A stretch of DNA of 42,374 nt from a virus. Made by a program: the position numbers and the translations under genes. The notes under the pieces are model-generated. The model saw only the letters and a program-made list of their open reading frames with translations. It was not told where the DNA came from and searched no databases. The DNA is taken from positions 1-42,374 of IMG/VR virus record IMGVR_UViG_3300049617_000256; one strand, written 5' to 3'. This document shows positions 25,798 through 42,121 of the stretch, piece after piece (the stretch's first letter is position 1; each line of letters starts with the position of its first letter).

Positions 25798-26820
25798 ATG
25801 ACATTATCTACAAAAATTCTCGTTTGGCTCGGTGTCTTGGCAGCCTTAGGGGCTTTATCATTTCTTATCTATAAAGATTTAGATAATGCTAAACAACTAT
25901 CTGCTTTGCAACAACAAAATATTCAACAAAAAGCACTTATTGATGGATTAGTTCAAAGTTCCAATCAATATACTACTAAAGATGATTTGAATAATTTTAT
26001 TCAAAGTAATACAGATAATCTCAAGGCTATCCAGGACAATCTAAATAGCTTGGGTGCTCAAATTACTGCGGCTAACACCGTCACTGCTAACAGTTCTGGG
26101 CAACAGGCGACTAATGTTCATAGCTCTGGTACTGGAACAACGAATCCAAATCCAACAGCTCCAACTGTAATTCCTTGCCCTAGTGGTGGCTCCGTTAATT
26201 GTCCCAATACAGATCCATTTGGATATCAGTTAAAACAACAACAACTAACTCTAAATGAAGATTTTCCAAATCTGCAAGTTCCAATTGGTTCAATAGGATT
26301 TAGTGCTTGGCAACAAGCACCATGGAGTTTAAATATTGCTCCAAGAGAATATAATGTTACTAGCGTAATTGGTCAAGATCAAAATCAAAGAATCTATGTT
26401 GATAATCAATTTACTGTTAAAGTGAATGGTAAAGATTATGAAGTACCAATTAAGACTGCCCAGACCAAACAAGTCTTACCGCCAGCTACTTGGTCTTGGT
26501 GGAATCCAGGTTTGTTTATGGGTTTAGATGGAGGTCTTAATCTCACTAATATTCCACCGCTCCATGGCGAGGTCTCGCCCAGTTTGAATTTAGGTATTAT
26601 GTCTTATGGCACCTTTAAAACTCAACCGGATATTTCTGTACTGCAAATGGGTCTTGGTTATGGTTTTGTTAGCAAAAAACCAGAATTGGTTATCACTCCA
26701 ATCGCCCTCAACGTTGGTAAAGTTGTTCCACTTCTACACAACACTTATGTCGCGCCATCACTACAAATAGGGATAGATGGATCTGTCAATGCTATGTTAG
26801 GATTAAGACTAGGACTATAA
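25798..26820 (+). CDS. Membrane-anchored protein with coiled coil and beta C-terminus
   Basis: This 340-aa protein has one N-terminal transmembrane segment (about residues 6-25, ILVWLGVLAALGALSFLIY). A Gln/Asn/Leu-rich coiled coil follows (about 30-90), then a Thr/Ser/Asn/Pro linker with two Cys (C127, C135). The C-terminus (about 225-340) has Gly-rich alternating strands (FMGLDGGLNL, GLGYGFVSKK, MLGLRLGL) that resemble a beta-barrel. No lipobox was seen. The layout, anchor plus coiled coil plus periplasmic or outer domain, recalls spanin-like or envelope-spanning phage proteins, but there is no specific match. Function unknown; an envelope role is inferred. Confidence 0.7.
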   Translation: MTLSTKILVWLGVLAALGALSFLIYKDLDNAKQLSALQQQNIQQKALIDGLVQSSNQYTTKDDLNNFIQSNTDNLKAIQDNLNSLGAQITAANTVTANSSGQQATNVHSSGTGTTNPNPTAPTVIPCPSGGSVNCPNTDPFGYQLKQQQLTLNEDFPNLQVPIGSIGFSAWQQAPWSLNIAPREYNVTSVIGQDQNQRIYVDNQFTVKVNGKDYEVPIKTAQTKQVLPPATWSWWNPGLFMGLDGGLNLTNIPPLHGEVSPSLNLGIMSYGTFKTQPDISVLQMGLGYGFVSKKPELVITPIALNVGKVVPLLHNTYVAPSLQIGIDGSVNAMLGLRLGL

Positions 26821-28606: not shown

Positions 28607-28623
28607 AGGCACGAGGAGATAGA

Positions 28624-29988
28624 ATGCCAGCGACAAGTGTTACCGAAGACGGTCAAAAAGAAGTAGTAGTAGATAATGTGTCAAGTGCGGAAGTAAAAGC
28701 ATCCGATAATGTCGATGTAGATAAATTAGCGGCACTAAAAGCAAAAAGTCAAGCCAAGCAACAGGAGAACAATATGGCAGCCCGAATAGTTTCGAAGAAA
28801 GAAAAGAGTTTAGTCCTTGGAGTTATTGGCTCAGGACAAGCTGGTTCTCGATTAGCCGAAGCCTTCCATAAAGAAGGTTACGATGCTGTCGTTATCAACA
28901 CAGCTATGCAAGACTTAAAGTATATTGATGTCCCCGATTCTAATAAATTACTTTTGGAATATGGTTTGGGCGGCGCCGCCAAGGAAGTAGAAATTGGTCG
29001 TGCAGCAGCCGAAGCACATCGTGGAGAAATTCTTCAATTAGTTAATGAAAAGCTAACTAACTCTCAAGTTAATGTTTTATGCCTTAGTTTAGGTGGTGGT
29101 TCTGGTGCAGGTTCTTGTGAAACATTAGTAGACATCTTATCTGGTCTTGGTAAGCCACTAGTTGTTATTACGGTTCTTCCAATGGATACCGAAGATACTC
29201 AAACAAAATCCAATGCCTTGGAAACTTTGTCTAAATTAACCAAAATGGCTCAAAGTAAAAAGGTCAATAATCTAATTGTAGTTGATAACGCCAAAATTGG
29301 AACTATCTATCATAATGTTAGCCAAATGGAATTTTTTGGTGTTGCTAATAAGGCTATTGTCAATCCAATTGATGTTTTCAATAGACTATCTTCTATGCCA
29401 TCTTCTGTTAAACCATTAGATCCAATGGAGTTCTCAAAAGTTTTTCTTGATGGTGAAGGTTTAACTGTTTATGGAGAGTTCTCTATTGATAATTATGATC
29501 AAGAAGAGACTGCGATTGCAGAAGCCATCATCAATAACTTATCTAATAATTTATTGGCAGAAGGTTTTGATTTAAAGCAGGCAAAGTATGTTGGCTATAT
29601 TCTTGCTGCTAATAAAACGGTCTGGGATAAAGTTAAAACAGAATATACTGATTATGCCAACCATATGATCAATGATTTATGTGGTCACCCTAAAGGTGTT
29701 TTCAAAGGAATGTATGTAACAGAAACTCCTGAAAATGTTATTAAGGTTTATTCTATGTTTTCTGGATTGGGTTTACCAACTTCGCGTGTTGAACAATTAA
29801 AAAATGACACCAAAGAACTCCAATCTAAATTTAAGAGTAAAGATGATGCTAGAAATCTTACTTTACATTTGGATACGGGTGCTAATGAAACAGTATCTGC
29901 TGCTCAAAAGGTTAAAGACAAGATCGCTAATAAATCGTCTACTTTCGGTAAGTTTGTTACAGGCGTAGTCGATAGAAGGAAATCATAA
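28624..29988 (+). CDS. Tubulin/FtsZ-superfamily GTPase-like protein
   Basis: This 454-aa protein carries FtsZ/tubulin signatures in order: VIGSGQAGSRLAEAF (G69-F81), the T3-like GLGGAAKEVEIGRAAAE, the tubulin T4 loop LGGGSGAGSCET (G157-S164), and VVDNAKI (about 220-225), matching FtsZ's guanine-contact region. The T7-like loop KPLDPMEFSKVF (263-274) differs from FtsZ's NxDxxD but keeps an acidic residue before Phe. It is longer than phage PhuZ. The first ~60 residues are low complexity; an internal ATG at 28774 is an alternative start. The C-terminus is basic and ends in a short amphipathic stretch. It probably forms cytoplasmic filaments that organise phage DNA or a replication compartment (inference). 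GAGGAG precedes the ATG. Confidence 0.85.
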   Translation: MPATSVTEDGQKEVVVDNVSSAEVKASDNVDVDKLAALKAKSQAKQQENNMAARIVSKKEKSLVLGVIGSGQAGSRLAEAFHKEGYDAVVINTAMQDLKYIDVPDSNKLLLEYGLGGAAKEVEIGRAAAEAHRGEILQLVNEKLTNSQVNVLCLSLGGGSGAGSCETLVDILSGLGKPLVVITVLPMDTEDTQTKSNALETLSKLTKMAQSKKVNNLIVVDNAKIGTIYHNVSQMEFFGVANKAIVNPIDVFNRLSSMPSSVKPLDPMEFSKVFLDGEGLTVYGEFSIDNYDQEETAIAEAIINNLSNNLLAEGFDLKQAKYVGYILAANKTVWDKVKTEYTDYANHMINDLCGHPKGVFKGMYVTETPENVIKVYSMFSGLGLPTSRVEQLKNDTKELQSKFKSKDDARNLTLHLDTGANETVSAAQKVKDKIANKSSTFGKFVTGVVDRRKS

Positions 29989-30245
29989 TGACATCATTTA
30001 ATTTTATAGAAGATGGATATAGACCACCTTCACCAATGGATGGCTATCGACCATCTATGTTAAGAGATTTATGTAGTTTTTATAAAACTCAAGGATCAAC
30101 TGTAACAATATACACTGATTCAAATCAAGTTTTCACTGGTACCCTGGTAGATTACAATATAGCTCTGGTTAAACTTACTACCACTGATACGCATCAAGAT
30201 TTTTATATATTGACTAATCACGTAATTGGAATTACTGGTCAGTGA
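29988..30245 (+). CDS. Small Sm/SH3-fold-like protein coupled to the tubulin-like gene
   Basis: This 85-aa protein starts at an ATG sharing its A with the tubulin-like stop (TAATG). The N-terminal third repeats EDGYRPPSP and MDGYRPSM. The rest has the strand pattern of an Sm-like or DUF2642-type small beta-barrel: GSTVTIYTDSNQVFTGTLVD, then ALVKLTTTD and FYILTNHVIGITG. Sm-fold proteins commonly bind RNA or oligomerise as rings, but nothing here proves RNA binding. The coupling suggests a fixed dose relative to the tubulin-like protein and a possible partner role (inference). The DGY motifs match those enriched in the virion proteins, so a structural role is also possible. Confidence 0.7.
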   Translation: MTSFNFIEDGYRPPSPMDGYRPSMLRDLCSFYKTQGSTVTIYTDSNQVFTGTLVDYNIALVKLTTTDTHQDFYILTNHVIGITGQ

Positions 30246-30314: not shown

Positions 30315-31832
30315 ATGACCAAAATCTTGATCAAAGGTAACACCTCCCAGATAACAGAAGAATCCGACGCCAACCATTTACTTGCGCTCGATAAACATCT
30401 TTCTTTCTATGTTCAAGGGGCTGAACATACAGCAGCCTTTCGTGGTTTCTTCAACCGCGCGGGCGATTTTGTTAAGTGGGATGGATTCAAAAAACTTCTA
30501 ACTCCTACGCTTCAATTTTCTACTGGTTTAGTAGAGAGAGTCAAAGAATTCTATCAAGCTGCTAACAAAACAATTGAAGTTGTCGATAAACGACCACCCA
30601 AATCTATTGGAGCGCCTCGCGATATTTTGGGAAATTTAAAGAAAATAGATAAAGAGCCGTATCCGTATCAACTGGAAATTCTGGATGTCATTGACAAAAA
30701 TGATCGAGGAATTATAAAGGTAGCTACAGGAGGAGGAAAGTCTCTCATCGCCGCCCTTATTGCCGCAAAATTAGGCAAGAAGACGATCATCTACGTAATT
30801 GGAAAAGATTTATTATATCAATTTCATGATTTTCTCTCTCTAGCATTTGAAGAAAAAATTGGCATCATCGGTGATGGTCGGTGTGAAATACACGATATCA
30901 ATGTTGCTAGTATTTGGACTATTGGTCAAGCCATTGGTATGAAAAAGAAAGACATCTTACTTGACAACGAAGATGATGAAGAATCAATCAGTCCCAACAA
31001 ATATGTTGAGATTCTTAAAATGATGAAAGCAGCTAGAGTTCATATCATTGATGAATGTCACATGTCAGCTTGTGAAACCATCCAACAGATTTTCAAACAT
31101 GCTACTGCTGAGCACCTCTATGGATTGAGCGGCTCTCCTTGGAGAGATGATGGAGCCGACTTACTCATCGAATCCGTTTTGGGAAAGTACATTGTCAATA
31201 TTTCTGCTTCTTACTTAATTGCACGTGATTACTTAGCCCAACCTCTTATTAGATTTCGAGTTGTCCCACCCTATCATTATGAGTTAGAAAAAGTTTATCC
31301 ATCTATCTATAAGAAGTACGTCGTGGAAAATGAAGTCAGAAATGGTTTAGTATTAGAAGGAGCGAGAGCATTAGTTGGCAAAGGATATCAGGCATTAGTA
31401 TTATTTAATAGTCTTAAACACGGTAAGATTTTATACGATCTTTTTAAGCAACATATGAAGTGTGCTTTATTGGATGGATCCAATAGTAAAGAAGAACGTG
31501 AAAAGGTGAAGAAGGATTTAATGGAGCACAAGATAGATTGTGTTCTAGCCTCTCGTATCTTCGATATTGGAGTTGATATTCCGAGTCTTTCTGGCTTGGT
31601 AATCGCATGCGGCGGCAAATCGACAGTCAAGGCTTTACAACGAGTGGGAAGAGTTATTCGTAAATATCCTGGTAAAAAGTTTGCTGTGATTATTGATTAT
31701 GTTGATCAGGCGCCTTTTTTGGATAATCACTCTAAGACTCGTTATCGCATTTATACGTCGGAAGATGGCTTTGATGTAAAATGGCCAAGCGACGCAAAGA
31801 AACCTAGAAAAGCAAGTGGTAAGAAAAAATGA
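30315..31832 (+). CDS. SF2 DNA helicase, UvsW-like
   Basis: This 505-aa protein has the SF2 helicase motifs in order: PYPYQLEILD, Walker A ATGGGKS (A137-S143), Walker B IIDECH (D246-H249), motif III-like LSGSPWRDD, motif V LASRIFDIGVDIPSL, and motif VI QRVGRVIR (Q442-R449). The ~115-residue N-terminal part is typical of UvsW-type phage helicases, which remodel replication forks and recombination intermediates. It heads a coupled replication operon (helicase, two unknowns, loader, DnaB). The C-terminus is Lys-rich. A hairpin occupies its leader. RapA or XPB-like helicases are alternatives, but phage context favours UvsW. Confidence 0.87.
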   Translation: MTKILIKGNTSQITEESDANHLLALDKHLSFYVQGAEHTAAFRGFFNRAGDFVKWDGFKKLLTPTLQFSTGLVERVKEFYQAANKTIEVVDKRPPKSIGAPRDILGNLKKIDKEPYPYQLEILDVIDKNDRGIIKVATGGGKSLIAALIAAKLGKKTIIYVIGKDLLYQFHDFLSLAFEEKIGIIGDGRCEIHDINVASIWTIGQAIGMKKKDILLDNEDDEESISPNKYVEILKMMKAARVHIIDECHMSACETIQQIFKHATAEHLYGLSGSPWRDDGADLLIESVLGKYIVNISASYLIARDYLAQPLIRFRVVPPYHYELEKVYPSIYKKYVVENEVRNGLVLEGARALVGKGYQALVLFNSLKHGKILYDLFKQHMKCALLDGSNSKEEREKVKKDLMEHKIDCVLASRIFDIGVDIPSLSGLVIACGGKSTVKALQRVGRVIRKYPGKKFAVIIDYVDQAPFLDNHSKTRYRIYTSEDGFDVKWPSDAKKPRKASGKKK

Positions 31833-32422
31833 CAAAAGAAACAGACGGCGGCTCATTCGGTGATTATCCGAATGAAAAATATAAACAATTTTTTGAGAAG
31901 TTTTCAGAGATTGAAACTTTGGATGTGGCGGGCTGGAAACCTGTTCATGTTCTTGCTTATTTTTGTAAGAAATATCAGGATCAATATGGCGTGAAGTATT
32001 CATTCAAATTTAATAGCCCCTCGCCTCCCAAATGTTTTGAAGTATTCCAGGTCAAAAAAATGGGAATTTTGTTAAGCACTAATCCAGCTATTCTCAAAGG
32101 TTATATCGATTGGATTTACGAGAACAAAGTTGTCAAAGCGAAGAGACGTTTAACTTCTATTTCATTTATGACCAATGATATTGTTATAAATGATTATAAA
32201 ATGAATGTCTTACTGGCTAACAAGAAAAATCTTAATGTAGACCGTTCGACAGAACTACCTGTTAAATATAAAGATGCTTTTCAAGAGGTTGGTATTACGG
32301 TTGCTAACTATGGTGATTTAGCTTTTTTGTCACAGATGGAACAAACTCCAGAAATAACTTCTGCTTTTGAAAAATTGAATGAGCTAGGATTTGATAGTGA
32401 TATTTTAGGGAGAATTGTATGA
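31829..32422 (+). CDS. Hypothetical protein in replication operon
   Basis: This 197-aa protein starts at ATGA overlapping the helicase stop. It is basic in the middle (YENKVVKAKRRLTSISF) and has mixed helical and beta composition. Features such as VLAYFCKKYQDQYGVKYSFKF and MGILLSTNPAILKGYIDWIYE do not match a family I can name. Its place between a UvsW-like helicase and the helicase loader suggests a replication or recombination accessory protein. That is inference from context only. It ends in ATGA with the next gene. Confidence 0.7.
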   Translation: MTKETDGGSFGDYPNEKYKQFFEKFSEIETLDVAGWKPVHVLAYFCKKYQDQYGVKYSFKFNSPSPPKCFEVFQVKKMGILLSTNPAILKGYIDWIYENKVVKAKRRLTSISFMTNDIVINDYKMNVLLANKKNLNVDRSTELPVKYKDAFQEVGITVANYGDLAFLSQMEQTPEITSAFEKLNELGFDSDILGRIV

Positions 32423-39362: not shown

Positions 39363-39752
39363 ATGAAGATGAAAGGTACAATCCTTCTAAATTATAGTGA
39401 CAATACCAAACAAGTTGAAGACGAAGAAAAAACTCGTTTCCTTCGTGGTATTCTGGATCAAATGAGCGTCCCGATCGGGGAATTTTGGATAGCTGACGGA
39501 CCTTTATCTATTGATCAGAAAATTAAATTGAGAGGAATCCTCGCCAGTTACGGTATACAGGTTATAGATGACTTAGATGGTCATATGCAAATATATGTTG
39601 AGGGTGAAAAGGTAGCCGAATGGTTCAAATGCACTTATAAAATAAAAAGGGATTTACGCCAAATTGATCCCAGAAAACAATTTTATTTGGAGATGGAAGT
39701 AAACTGCTGGTCGGTCTTCGAAGAAGAAGAGCAGCGCCTACAAGAGTCTTGA
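39363..39752 (+). CDS. Hypothetical protein between nrdJ and phoH
   Basis: I start this 129-aa protein at the ATG at 39363, because the in-frame TTG two codons earlier and the ATG at 39369 are less or equally supported. No start has a strong Shine-Dalgarno. Content is mixed alpha/beta: KGTILLNYSDNTKQVEDEEK, GEFWIADGPLSIDQKIKLR, YGIQVIDDLDGHMQIYVEGE and EWFKCTYKIKRDL, with a Glu-rich C-terminus. No family is recognised. It ends three bases before the phoH start. Association with nucleotide or RNA metabolism is suggested only by neighbours. Confidence 0.68.
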   Translation: MKMKGTILLNYSDNTKQVEDEEKTRFLRGILDQMSVPIGEFWIADGPLSIDQKIKLRGILASYGIQVIDDLDGHMQIYVEGEKVAEWFKCTYKIKRDLRQIDPRKQFYLEMEVNCWSVFEEEEQRLQES

Positions 39753-39754
39753 TA

Positions 39755-42121
39755 ATGAAAAAACAATACGTTTTAGATACATCGTCTTTAATTTTTGATC
39801 CTACAACTTGGAAACAATTTCCAAACAGTGATGTAATTATCCCTATCGCCGTCCTTAATGAGTTAGATAAACTCAAAAAGCAATCTGGCGAAGCTGGTAG
39901 AAATGCCAGAGTTTGTATTAGAATGCTGGACGATATTAGTGATAAGCTTGATATCAGTACTGGTATCGTTTTAGATGATGATATTTTATTGAAAATTGAT
40001 GCGACCTATCGTGATATGAGCAATCCAATGTACGCTGGATTTGGTGATCCTAATTACGGTGATACTCAAATCTTAGCTTGTGCATTAGCTACCTGGATGG
40101 AACACCCAGAACACGATGTCACATTGGTTAGTAATGATATCAATCTTAGAGTTAAAGCTAAATCTAGAAATATTGATGCTATCGCTCACGATGGTAAAAG
40201 ATACTCTCTAAGTGATTTGTATTCTGGTACTCAGACAATTGTTCACGAAGAGGCTGGTTTGGATTTGCTTAAATGTGGCTCTATTGATCCACGTGGTTAC
40301 GGATTCAACATGAGTCCGAATGAGTGCGTTCTATTCGAAAGTCCAACCGGAGAAGGTATTGCTTTGGGTCGTAAAGTCGCCAATGATAAAATTAAATTAG
40401 TTAGAAAAGTTTATCCTTGGAATATTGCTAGTAGAAACAAAGAGCAATCTTTTGCTATTGATTTAATTATGGATAAAAATGTTGATCTAGTTACTTTAAT
40501 TGGTAGAGCTGGAACTGGTAAAAGTTTAATTGTATTAGCTACTGCACTAGAATTAGTTATCAGTAGAAAAGAATATGATAAATTTATTATCTATAGACCA
40601 ATTCAACCAGTTGGAAATGATATTGGATATCTTCCTGGAACTATGGAAGAAAAATTGGCTCCTTGGTTTCAAGCCATTATGGATAACTTTGAGTTATTAT
40701 TTGGCAATAAAGTTGGAACTGATTGGAAACGTGATTTAGAGATGTTTCAGAAGAAGGGTAGAATTGAAATGGAAGCTATTACCTATATTCGTGGTCGTAG
40801 TATCCCCAATGCTATTATTTTAGTGGATGAGTGTTTTCCGGCAAATCAATATATTGCTACCGAAAATGGTAAAGAAAAAATAGGGATACTGTATAAGAAG
40901 TTTAAAAATGGTAAAGAATTACCTTTAGTTAAAAGCTATAATAGAACAAATGGTGAGTTTGAATACAAAAAAATAGTCAATGCTTGGAACCGTGGTAAGA
41001 AAAAATTATTAGAAGTTAAGTGCGCTAACAGAAAAATTAAATGCACAGAAAACCATAGATTTTTGACTGAAAATGGTTGGAAAGAGGCGTCTAAACTACA
41101 AATTGGTGAATTAATCAAAACCTCTGAATACACCGATCATCAACTGTTGCATTATCTAAATTCTGATCAAGAACAAATTATTTTAGGATCCTTCCTTGGC
41201 GATGGCAACATAGCCAATCATGGTCGTTCCAGATTTAGACTAAGGATGACTCATGGTTTTGATCAAAGAGAATATTGCGAATGGAAAGCTGGTATGTTTG
41301 GTGCTAAAACAAGAATTATTAAAGACAATGGTTATTCCAAGAAATTGGCAATTGCTTTCAATTCTGAAATGTTTGGCATGAATCAAATATTACCAAAAAC
41401 TAAAGAAAGCTGCCCTCAGTGGGTATTAGATAAACTTGATGTTAGAGGTTTGGCAATTTGGTTTATGGATGATGGGACAGTTAATGCCGATTATAATGGC
41501 GCTAGAATATCTACTTGTTCCTTTGATGAAAATTCGCAACAAAGAATAGTTAAGAAGTTGCAGTCATGGGGCATCGAATGTTCCTATGCTCAATATGGGG
41601 GATATTTTTATATCAATCTTACAAAGTCTGGATACATTAAATTAGCACAACTAATTGCACCTTATATGCATGAAAATATGCAGTATAAATGTGAAAAATC
41701 AAAACAAGTTGTGCATGTATGGGATACGCAATATGATGTTTCTGGCTGTACAGTAGTTGATGCTATTACTTATCTAGATTTAGAAGAAGAGGTTTATGAT
41801 ATTGAAGTAGAAGATAATCATAATTTTATAGTCTGCTCTTCTTCTCAAGGTAAGAATAAAACTAACAGCGGATTAATAGCACATAATTGTCAAAATTTGT
41901 CAAAAGAAGAGGTCAAAACCATTCTAACTCGTGCTGGTGAAAATACCAAAATTATTCTAACTGGTGATATAGAACAAATCGATAATTCGTTGTTGGATGC
42001 AACTAGTAACGGATTGACGCATGTAATTGAAAAGTTTAAGGATTCAGAGATGGCAGGACATATTACTTTCACACAGGGTGAAAGAAGCCGTCTTGCTTCT
42101 ATGGCAGCCGAAATTTTATAA
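39755..42121 (+). CDS. phoH: PIN-PhoH fusion protein interrupted by an intein
   Basis: I start at ATG 39755 (AAGAG eight bases upstream); an in-frame TTG lies at 39749. The 788-aa product opens with a PIN nuclease domain with likely metal acids D8, E36, D103 and D128 (YVLDTSSL, LNELDKL, GDTQILA, VSNDINLR). A PhoH ATPase follows, with Walker A GRAGTGKS (250-257) and Walker B IILVDE. At VDE the sequence is cut by a 352-residue intein (360-711) and resumes with CQNLSKEEVKTIL, LTGDIEQID and FTQGERSR. Spliced, the host protein is about 436 aa, normal for PIN-PhoH (YlaK-like) proteins, which may act as RNases coupled to an ATPase/helicase. Its activity should depend on splicing. Confidence 0.92.
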   Translation: MKKQYVLDTSSLIFDPTTWKQFPNSDVIIPIAVLNELDKLKKQSGEAGRNARVCIRMLDDISDKLDISTGIVLDDDILLKIDATYRDMSNPMYAGFGDPNYGDTQILACALATWMEHPEHDVTLVSNDINLRVKAKSRNIDAIAHDGKRYSLSDLYSGTQTIVHEEAGLDLLKCGSIDPRGYGFNMSPNECVLFESPTGEGIALGRKVANDKIKLVRKVYPWNIASRNKEQSFAIDLIMDKNVDLVTLIGRAGTGKSLIVLATALELVISRKEYDKFIIYRPIQPVGNDIGYLPGTMEEKLAPWFQAIMDNFELLFGNKVGTDWKRDLEMFQKKGRIEMEAITYIRGRSIPNAIILVDECFPANQYIATENGKEKIGILYKKFKNGKELPLVKSYNRTNGEFEYKKIVNAWNRGKKKLLEVKCANRKIKCTENHRFLTENGWKEASKLQIGELIKTSEYTDHQLLHYLNSDQEQIILGSFLGDGNIANHGRSRFRLRMTHGFDQREYCEWKAGMFGAKTRIIKDNGYSKKLAIAFNSEMFGMNQILPKTKESCPQWVLDKLDVRGLAIWFMDDGTVNADYNGARISTCSFDENSQQRIVKKLQSWGIECSYAQYGGYFYINLTKSGYIKLAQLIAPYMHENMQYKCEKSKQVVHVWDTQYDVSGCTVVDAITYLDLEEEVYDIEVEDNHNFIVCSSSQGKNKTNSGLIAHNCQNLSKEEVKTILTRAGENTKIILTGDIEQIDNSLLDATSNGLTHVIEKFKDSEMAGHITFTQGERSRLASMAAEIL
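40832..41887 (+). mobile_element. LAGLIDADG intein inserted in phoH Walker B
   Basis: The intein starts at Cys (codon 40832-40834) and ends at Asn (41885-41887), 352 aa, followed by a +1 Cys. Block A is CFPANQYIATENG and block B is TENHRFLTENGW, with the TxxH motif. LAGLIDADG-type blocks are LGSFLGDGN (about residue 477 of the precursor) and LAIWFMDDG (about 566). Block F is VYDIEVEDNHNFIV and block G ends GLIAHN before Cys. All class 1 splicing residues (C1, TxxH, HN, C+1) are present. The two endonuclease motifs keep acidic residues (GDG, DDG), so it may still home. Mobile by homing between phoH alleles (established for such inteins). Confidence 0.95.

Follow-up and report, generated by a model that had tools for sequence, protein, structure and literature searches.

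The gene at positions 28,624 to 29,988 of the window (the whole 42,374-nucleotide stretch of viral DNA analysed here, IMG/VR record IMGVR_UViG_3300049617_000256) encodes, judging from its sequence and predicted structure, a GTPase of the tubulin/FtsZ superfamily, and the filament protein is apparently active. The product is probably a tubulin of the TubZ class, from an uncultured jumbo myophage, and its filament would move phage DNA or particles in the course of a lytic infection. The features of the gene and its product are listed in Table 1.

Table 1 Positions in the window of the tubulin gene, its ribosome-binding site and the segments of the encoded protein.
Feature	Positions	Strand	Remarks
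TubZ-class tubulin/FtsZ-like GTPase (predicted)	28624..29988	+	intact ORF, 454 aa
GAGGAG ribosome-binding site of the tubulin gene	28613..28618	+	5 nt ahead of the ATG at 28624
N-terminal extension, residues 1-61	28624..28806	+	mostly disordered; conserved KLAALKAK; predicted helix 32-48
T1 loop GSGQAGS, residues 69-75	28828..28848	+	nucleotide binding; intein site in two relatives
T4 signature loop GGGSGAG, residues 157-163	29092..29112	+	from the alignment
T7 catalytic loop LDPMEF, residues 265-270	29416..29433	+	D266 invariant; residue 269 always E or D
Long C-terminal helix, residues 386-414	29779..29865	+	secondary structure of the model; H11 position of TubZ and PhuZ
Conserved basic C-terminal tail, SAAQKxKxKI..S.FGK...D.RK	29896..29985	+	net charge +6

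Homology, fold, conservation of the active site, purifying selection and copy number per phage were computed, and these computations support the fold and the active site of the window tubulin. The protein matched the tubulin GTPase domain (PF00091, E = 2.8e-15) and the TubZ-like_C domain (PF22453, E = 5.6e-9), both above the Pfam cut-offs; TubZ-like_C was above its cut-off also in 14 of 22 large contigs. The superfamily features were present, namely T1, a T4 loop of the GGGTGSG type and an activation domain with the T7 acids. Indeed, the preliminary description of this DNA had called the glycine loops clear, and both were found. The N-terminus, which it had described as being of low complexity, was predicted to be disordered at residues 1-30 and 46-57, but it is not simply of low complexity because it contains a conserved segment, KLAALKAK. 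The C-terminus proved basic, as described: the net charge of the last 30 residues was +6 (family mean +7, family minimum +5), and the tail was kept among relatives down to about 40% overall identity. Furthermore, dN against close relatives was 0.15-0.19 and dS was near saturation, indicating strong purifying selection on the tubulin.

Subsequently, the T7 loop, which had been regarded as divergent in its catalytic residues, was aligned with those of known proteins. The segment KPLDPMEF of the window protein corresponded to MNVDFADV of FtsZ, QSLDLMDI of phiKZ PhuZ and YHFDSSEF of Lysinibacillus TubZ. The reading LDPMEF was accurate; however, both acidic positions (D266 and E269) are kept, and from the motif NxDxxD only the leading Asn is absent, as is also the case in phiKZ PhuZ (SLDLMD) and plasmid TubZ (HFDSSEF). 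D266 was found in 58 of 58 non-redundant family members, and position 269 was Glu in 51 and Asp in seven of them. Glu occupies the corresponding position in alpha-tubulin as well. Because the acids are conserved and the loss of Asn is common to PhuZ and TubZ, the loop is predicted to be active and its divergence to be of no consequence; a catalytically altered T7 loop was ruled out on these two grounds.

The placement of the protein was examined with profiles, structure and phylogeny. When the family profile was compared with PDB sequences, TubZ/RepX (4ei7) gave an E-value of 4.9e-29, against 6e-17 for archaeal FtsZ. In profile-profile comparisons, TubZ together with Bacillus phage G matched at 6.9e-43 across residues 62-406 and FtsZ at 1.6e-16, whereas PhuZ gave the weakest match (2e-10), which covered residues 66-304 only and ended short of the end of the C-terminal domain. 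Structure prediction had been suggested as a check in the preliminary description, and the AlphaFold model built from 59 sequences (mean pLDDT 75.9, pTM 0.70, core mostly >80), which superseded a model from 6 sequences with a pLDDT of 54, had the tubulin/FtsZ fold with both domains, so the proposal withstood the refutation by fold named in that description. When this model was used for a fold search of the PDB, the top 20 matches were all TubZ (TM-score to target 0.71-0.81), followed by FtsZ and CetZ, and no PhuZ structure appeared among the top 50. In the maximum-likelihood tree, the family formed a clade (94/95) joined with TubZ and Bacillus phage G at 87/86; PhuZ (100/100) and FtsZ (99/99) formed clades separate from it, and TubZ itself was poorly resolved. 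The deep branches were long, and AU tests rejected neither a grouping of the family with PhuZ (p 0.29) nor one with FtsZ (p 0.14); hence, the designation TubZ-class is based on the profile matches, the domain and the fold, and not on the branching order of the tree. Membership in PhuZ itself was ruled out by the PhuZ clade at 100/100, which excludes the family, and by the weakest profile match. These results support, by sequence and model, the view that the window protein is nearer to TubZ, a plasmid mover, than to PhuZ, a phage spindle.

TubZ, known from the TubZRC systems of Bacillus-type plasmids and phage c-st (PMC7950403), has in common with the window protein the fold, the TubZ-like_C domain, the long C-terminal helix and a T7 loop of the DxxE type without Asn. 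The excess of about 140 residues over PhuZ noted previously was confirmed (127-140 residues; phiKZ 327 aa, Phabio 314 aa), but such a length is ordinary for TubZ, two plasmid references having 425 and 446 aa against 454 aa here. The identity to TubZ is only about 20%, and the window protein has an N-terminal extension of about 60 residues. In contrast to TubZ loci, no tubR or iteron centromere adjoins the gene, and the family occurs in jumbo phage contigs in which no integrase was detected. PhuZ of the nucleus-forming phages phiKZ and 201phi2-1 is likewise encoded by jumbo phages, and its SLDLMD resembles PLDPME; apart from the length, the window tubulin differs from it in its basic tail, its distinct clade and the lack of a detected chimallin. 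The C-terminus of PhuZ is an acidic knuckle that serves polymerisation, the H11 helix has been described in both TubZ and PhuZ, and the C-terminal tail of Bacillus/Clostridium TubZ recruits a cofactor (PMC3678025). The basic tail after the long helix of the window protein appears comparable to this cofactor-recruiting tail. With FtsZ and CetZ the family shares the common fold and the GTP loops, but the profile match is weaker, no division genes were seen among the neighbours, and the T7 Asn is absent here.

Taken together, these findings partly confirm the preliminary description, which was mostly correct on the facts but mistaken about what was strange. Its interpretation is partly supported: the branch is apart from PhuZ, as proposed, with its own clade and a far better profile match to TubZ, and it sits on the TubZ side. 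By sequence and predicted structure, PhuZ is the wrong yardstick and TubZ the nearest known family.

In three IMG/VR scans, family members were found in at least 88 distinct contigs, a lower bound; at least 26 of these are 200 kb or longer, the longest among the matches listed being 481 kb. In 22 of the large contigs (200-481 kb) the tubulin was counted, and every one had exactly one copy. No match to the window tubulin was observed among 50,697 named phage records at the protein or DNA level, and pattern scans of GTDB genomes gave no cellular homologues. The only named phage found was Bacillus phage G, whose gp138 was reached at 7e-11 from one relative (L063). This protein, annotated as a putative FtsZ-like cell division protein, is also a jumbo-phage tubulin, but its identity is about 24%, and it groups with a Pontibacillus TubZ, outside the family. 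Comparison of the DnaB helicase led only to distant named phages (20-26% identity). UniProt A0A6J5RW92 from an uncultured Caudovirales phage, named 'FtsZ Cell division GTPase', belongs to the same family (76% identity, 453 columns). Thus, this kind of protein is already known, under the name FtsZ; A0A6J5RW92 is annotated by name only, and the literature searched yielded no study of it.

The neighbouring genes were compared across 49 loci. Upstream of the tubulin were an epimerase (44/49) and glycosyltransferases, and downstream were a UvsW-type helicase cluster (48/49), a conserved 197-aa protein (45/49), a helicase loader and DnaB; in the window, the DnaB-type helicase lies 3.5 kb downstream, and conserved neighbours occupy 30315-31832 and 31829-32422. 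The tubulin gene is 23 bp from the upstream gene and is overlapped by the downstream gene. Clustering of the neighbours revealed no conserved small HTH or tubR-like gene flanking the tubulin in these loci, and no iteron array or tubS/tubC repeats were found near it, so the two other parts of TubZRC were not found next to the gene. Among the plasmid TubZ loci used for comparison, three of four had a gene of 90-103 aa directly upstream. In 22 large contigs, a TubR single-sequence query, run without a positive control, matched nothing, and no integrase was found (control 14/14). Chimallin (PF25677) was likewise detected in none of the 22; the same model finds it in five of seven PhuZ phages and misses two, so very distant chimallins could still be present. 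These absences are not final because the contigs carry no completeness estimate. The T4 capsid protein Gp23, used as a lineage marker, had no matches anywhere and hence did not discriminate.

Several small observations were made around the gene. Three genes upstream (25798-26820) lies the gene for a protein of 340 aa, in which a membrane segment was recognised by eye at the N-terminus; it was nearby in 33 of the 49 loci. The gene overlapping the tubulin stop codon (29988-30245) encodes an 85-aa protein without a Pfam or PHROG match; small genes of about 95-100 aa occur near its place in some other loci.

We infer the polymerisation, dynamics, cargo and timing of the protein as follows. Because the anatomy is conserved, GTP would be bound through T1-T6 and the subunits would stack head to tail, with D266 and E269 of the T7 loop completing the adjacent subunit's GTPase site. 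A dynamic filament would result, which may treadmill or be dynamically unstable; TubZ forms GTP-dependent treadmilling filaments of two or four strands. During lytic infection, the filament would place or transport phage DNA or particles within a cell that is large and crowded. PhuZ has a similar job, but here the polymer would be of the TubZ type and would work with no chimallin nucleus; the conserved basic tail would most likely dock a cargo or an adaptor. That no TubR or tubS was found next to the gene, that no integrase was detected and that the gene lies at replication genes make such lytic positioning the most likely role. The conservation of the active site, as read from the alignment, argues for GTPase chemistry and not for any particular cargo.

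Other roles were considered. The tubulin might drive partition of type III (TubZRC), by which the phage genome would be segregated like a plasmid while it persists in a carrier or pseudolysogenic state; TubZ plays this part in phage c-st and in Bacillus plasmids. TubZ is indeed the closest family, the C-terminal tail is basic and conserved, and a plasmid prophage needs no integrase; however, we consider this role unlikely, as no TubR-like gene is conserved beside the tubulin, whereas most of the plasmid TubZ loci have a small upstream gene, no iterons were found near the gene, the neighbours of which are closely spaced, and the TubR query, albeit uncontrolled, was negative. Action on the host, in which the tubulin would assemble together with host FtsZ or cap it, so that division is blocked and the cell becomes larger for the phage, seems improbable. 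The NCBIfam FtsZ model TIGR00065 matched the window protein at 2.4e-20, though with 73 bits against an equivalog cut-off of 295 bits, and the fold is compatible with FtsZ, but a mere decoy would have no need of the T7 acids and the GTP loops, which are strictly conserved here, and the protein is nearer to TubZ than to FtsZ.

It is very improbable that the protein is a diverged PhuZ centring a chimallin phage nucleus. PHROG 4733 (PhuZ) matched it weakly (2.9e-9), PhuZ is likewise found in jumbo phages, and the AU test did not reject a common clade. Against this stand the chimallin search, negative in all the large contigs yet positive in most PhuZ phages, the strongly supported PhuZ clade, the incomplete profile match and the acidic knuckle of PhuZ where the window protein has a basic tail.

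On the preferred reading, a TubZ-class filament for lytic infection, we tentatively raise the possibility that lytic phages have a second class of spindle, independent of the first: many nucleus-free jumbo phages would use a TubZ-type filament without TubR or tubS and with the basic tail as the cargo hook. If this is true, tubulin would have been recruited separately at least twice for the positioning of phage material, PhuZ being one of these cases. Most of what is known about phage tubulins comes from PhuZ, which acts in connection with the chimallin nucleus. That a TubZ-class tubulin is widespread, single-copy and strongly conserved in jumbo phages without detected chimallin suggests that cytoskeletal positioning is useful to giant phages generally, beyond those that form a nucleus. 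The family offers a second system for testing what phage filaments do.

Mobile elements were also observed. In two jumbo-phage relatives, an in-frame intein of about 480 residues interrupts the T1 loop of the tubulin (GQAG^C...HN^S; L005:6330-9134, on the contig of L048, and L047:4366-7137); no report of an intein within tubulin or FtsZ was found in the open literature searched. In the former phage, the UvsW-type helicase also carries an intein, in the Walker A loop (GSGK^A...HN^T; L005:11612-14140). In the window, a PhoH-like ORF (39749-42121) is split by a LAGLIDADG intein (VDE^C...HN^C) beside the Walker B motif. Around the tubulin-helicase block of other loci, likely homing-endonuclease-type genes were seen, GIY-YIG-like or HNH-like by eye (L007:6897-7631, L007:12023-12829 and L004:12293-13096).

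In one subclade (L067, L068, L070, L073, L074, L076, L077 and L078), a glycosyltransferase family 4 domain lies upstream of the tubulin in the same frame, giving ORFs of 700-824 aa. In five of these loci the tubulin start coincides with an ATG, which in most is preceded by a GAGGA-like site. The ORF may thus be a true fusion or a read-through gene with an in-frame start inside it.
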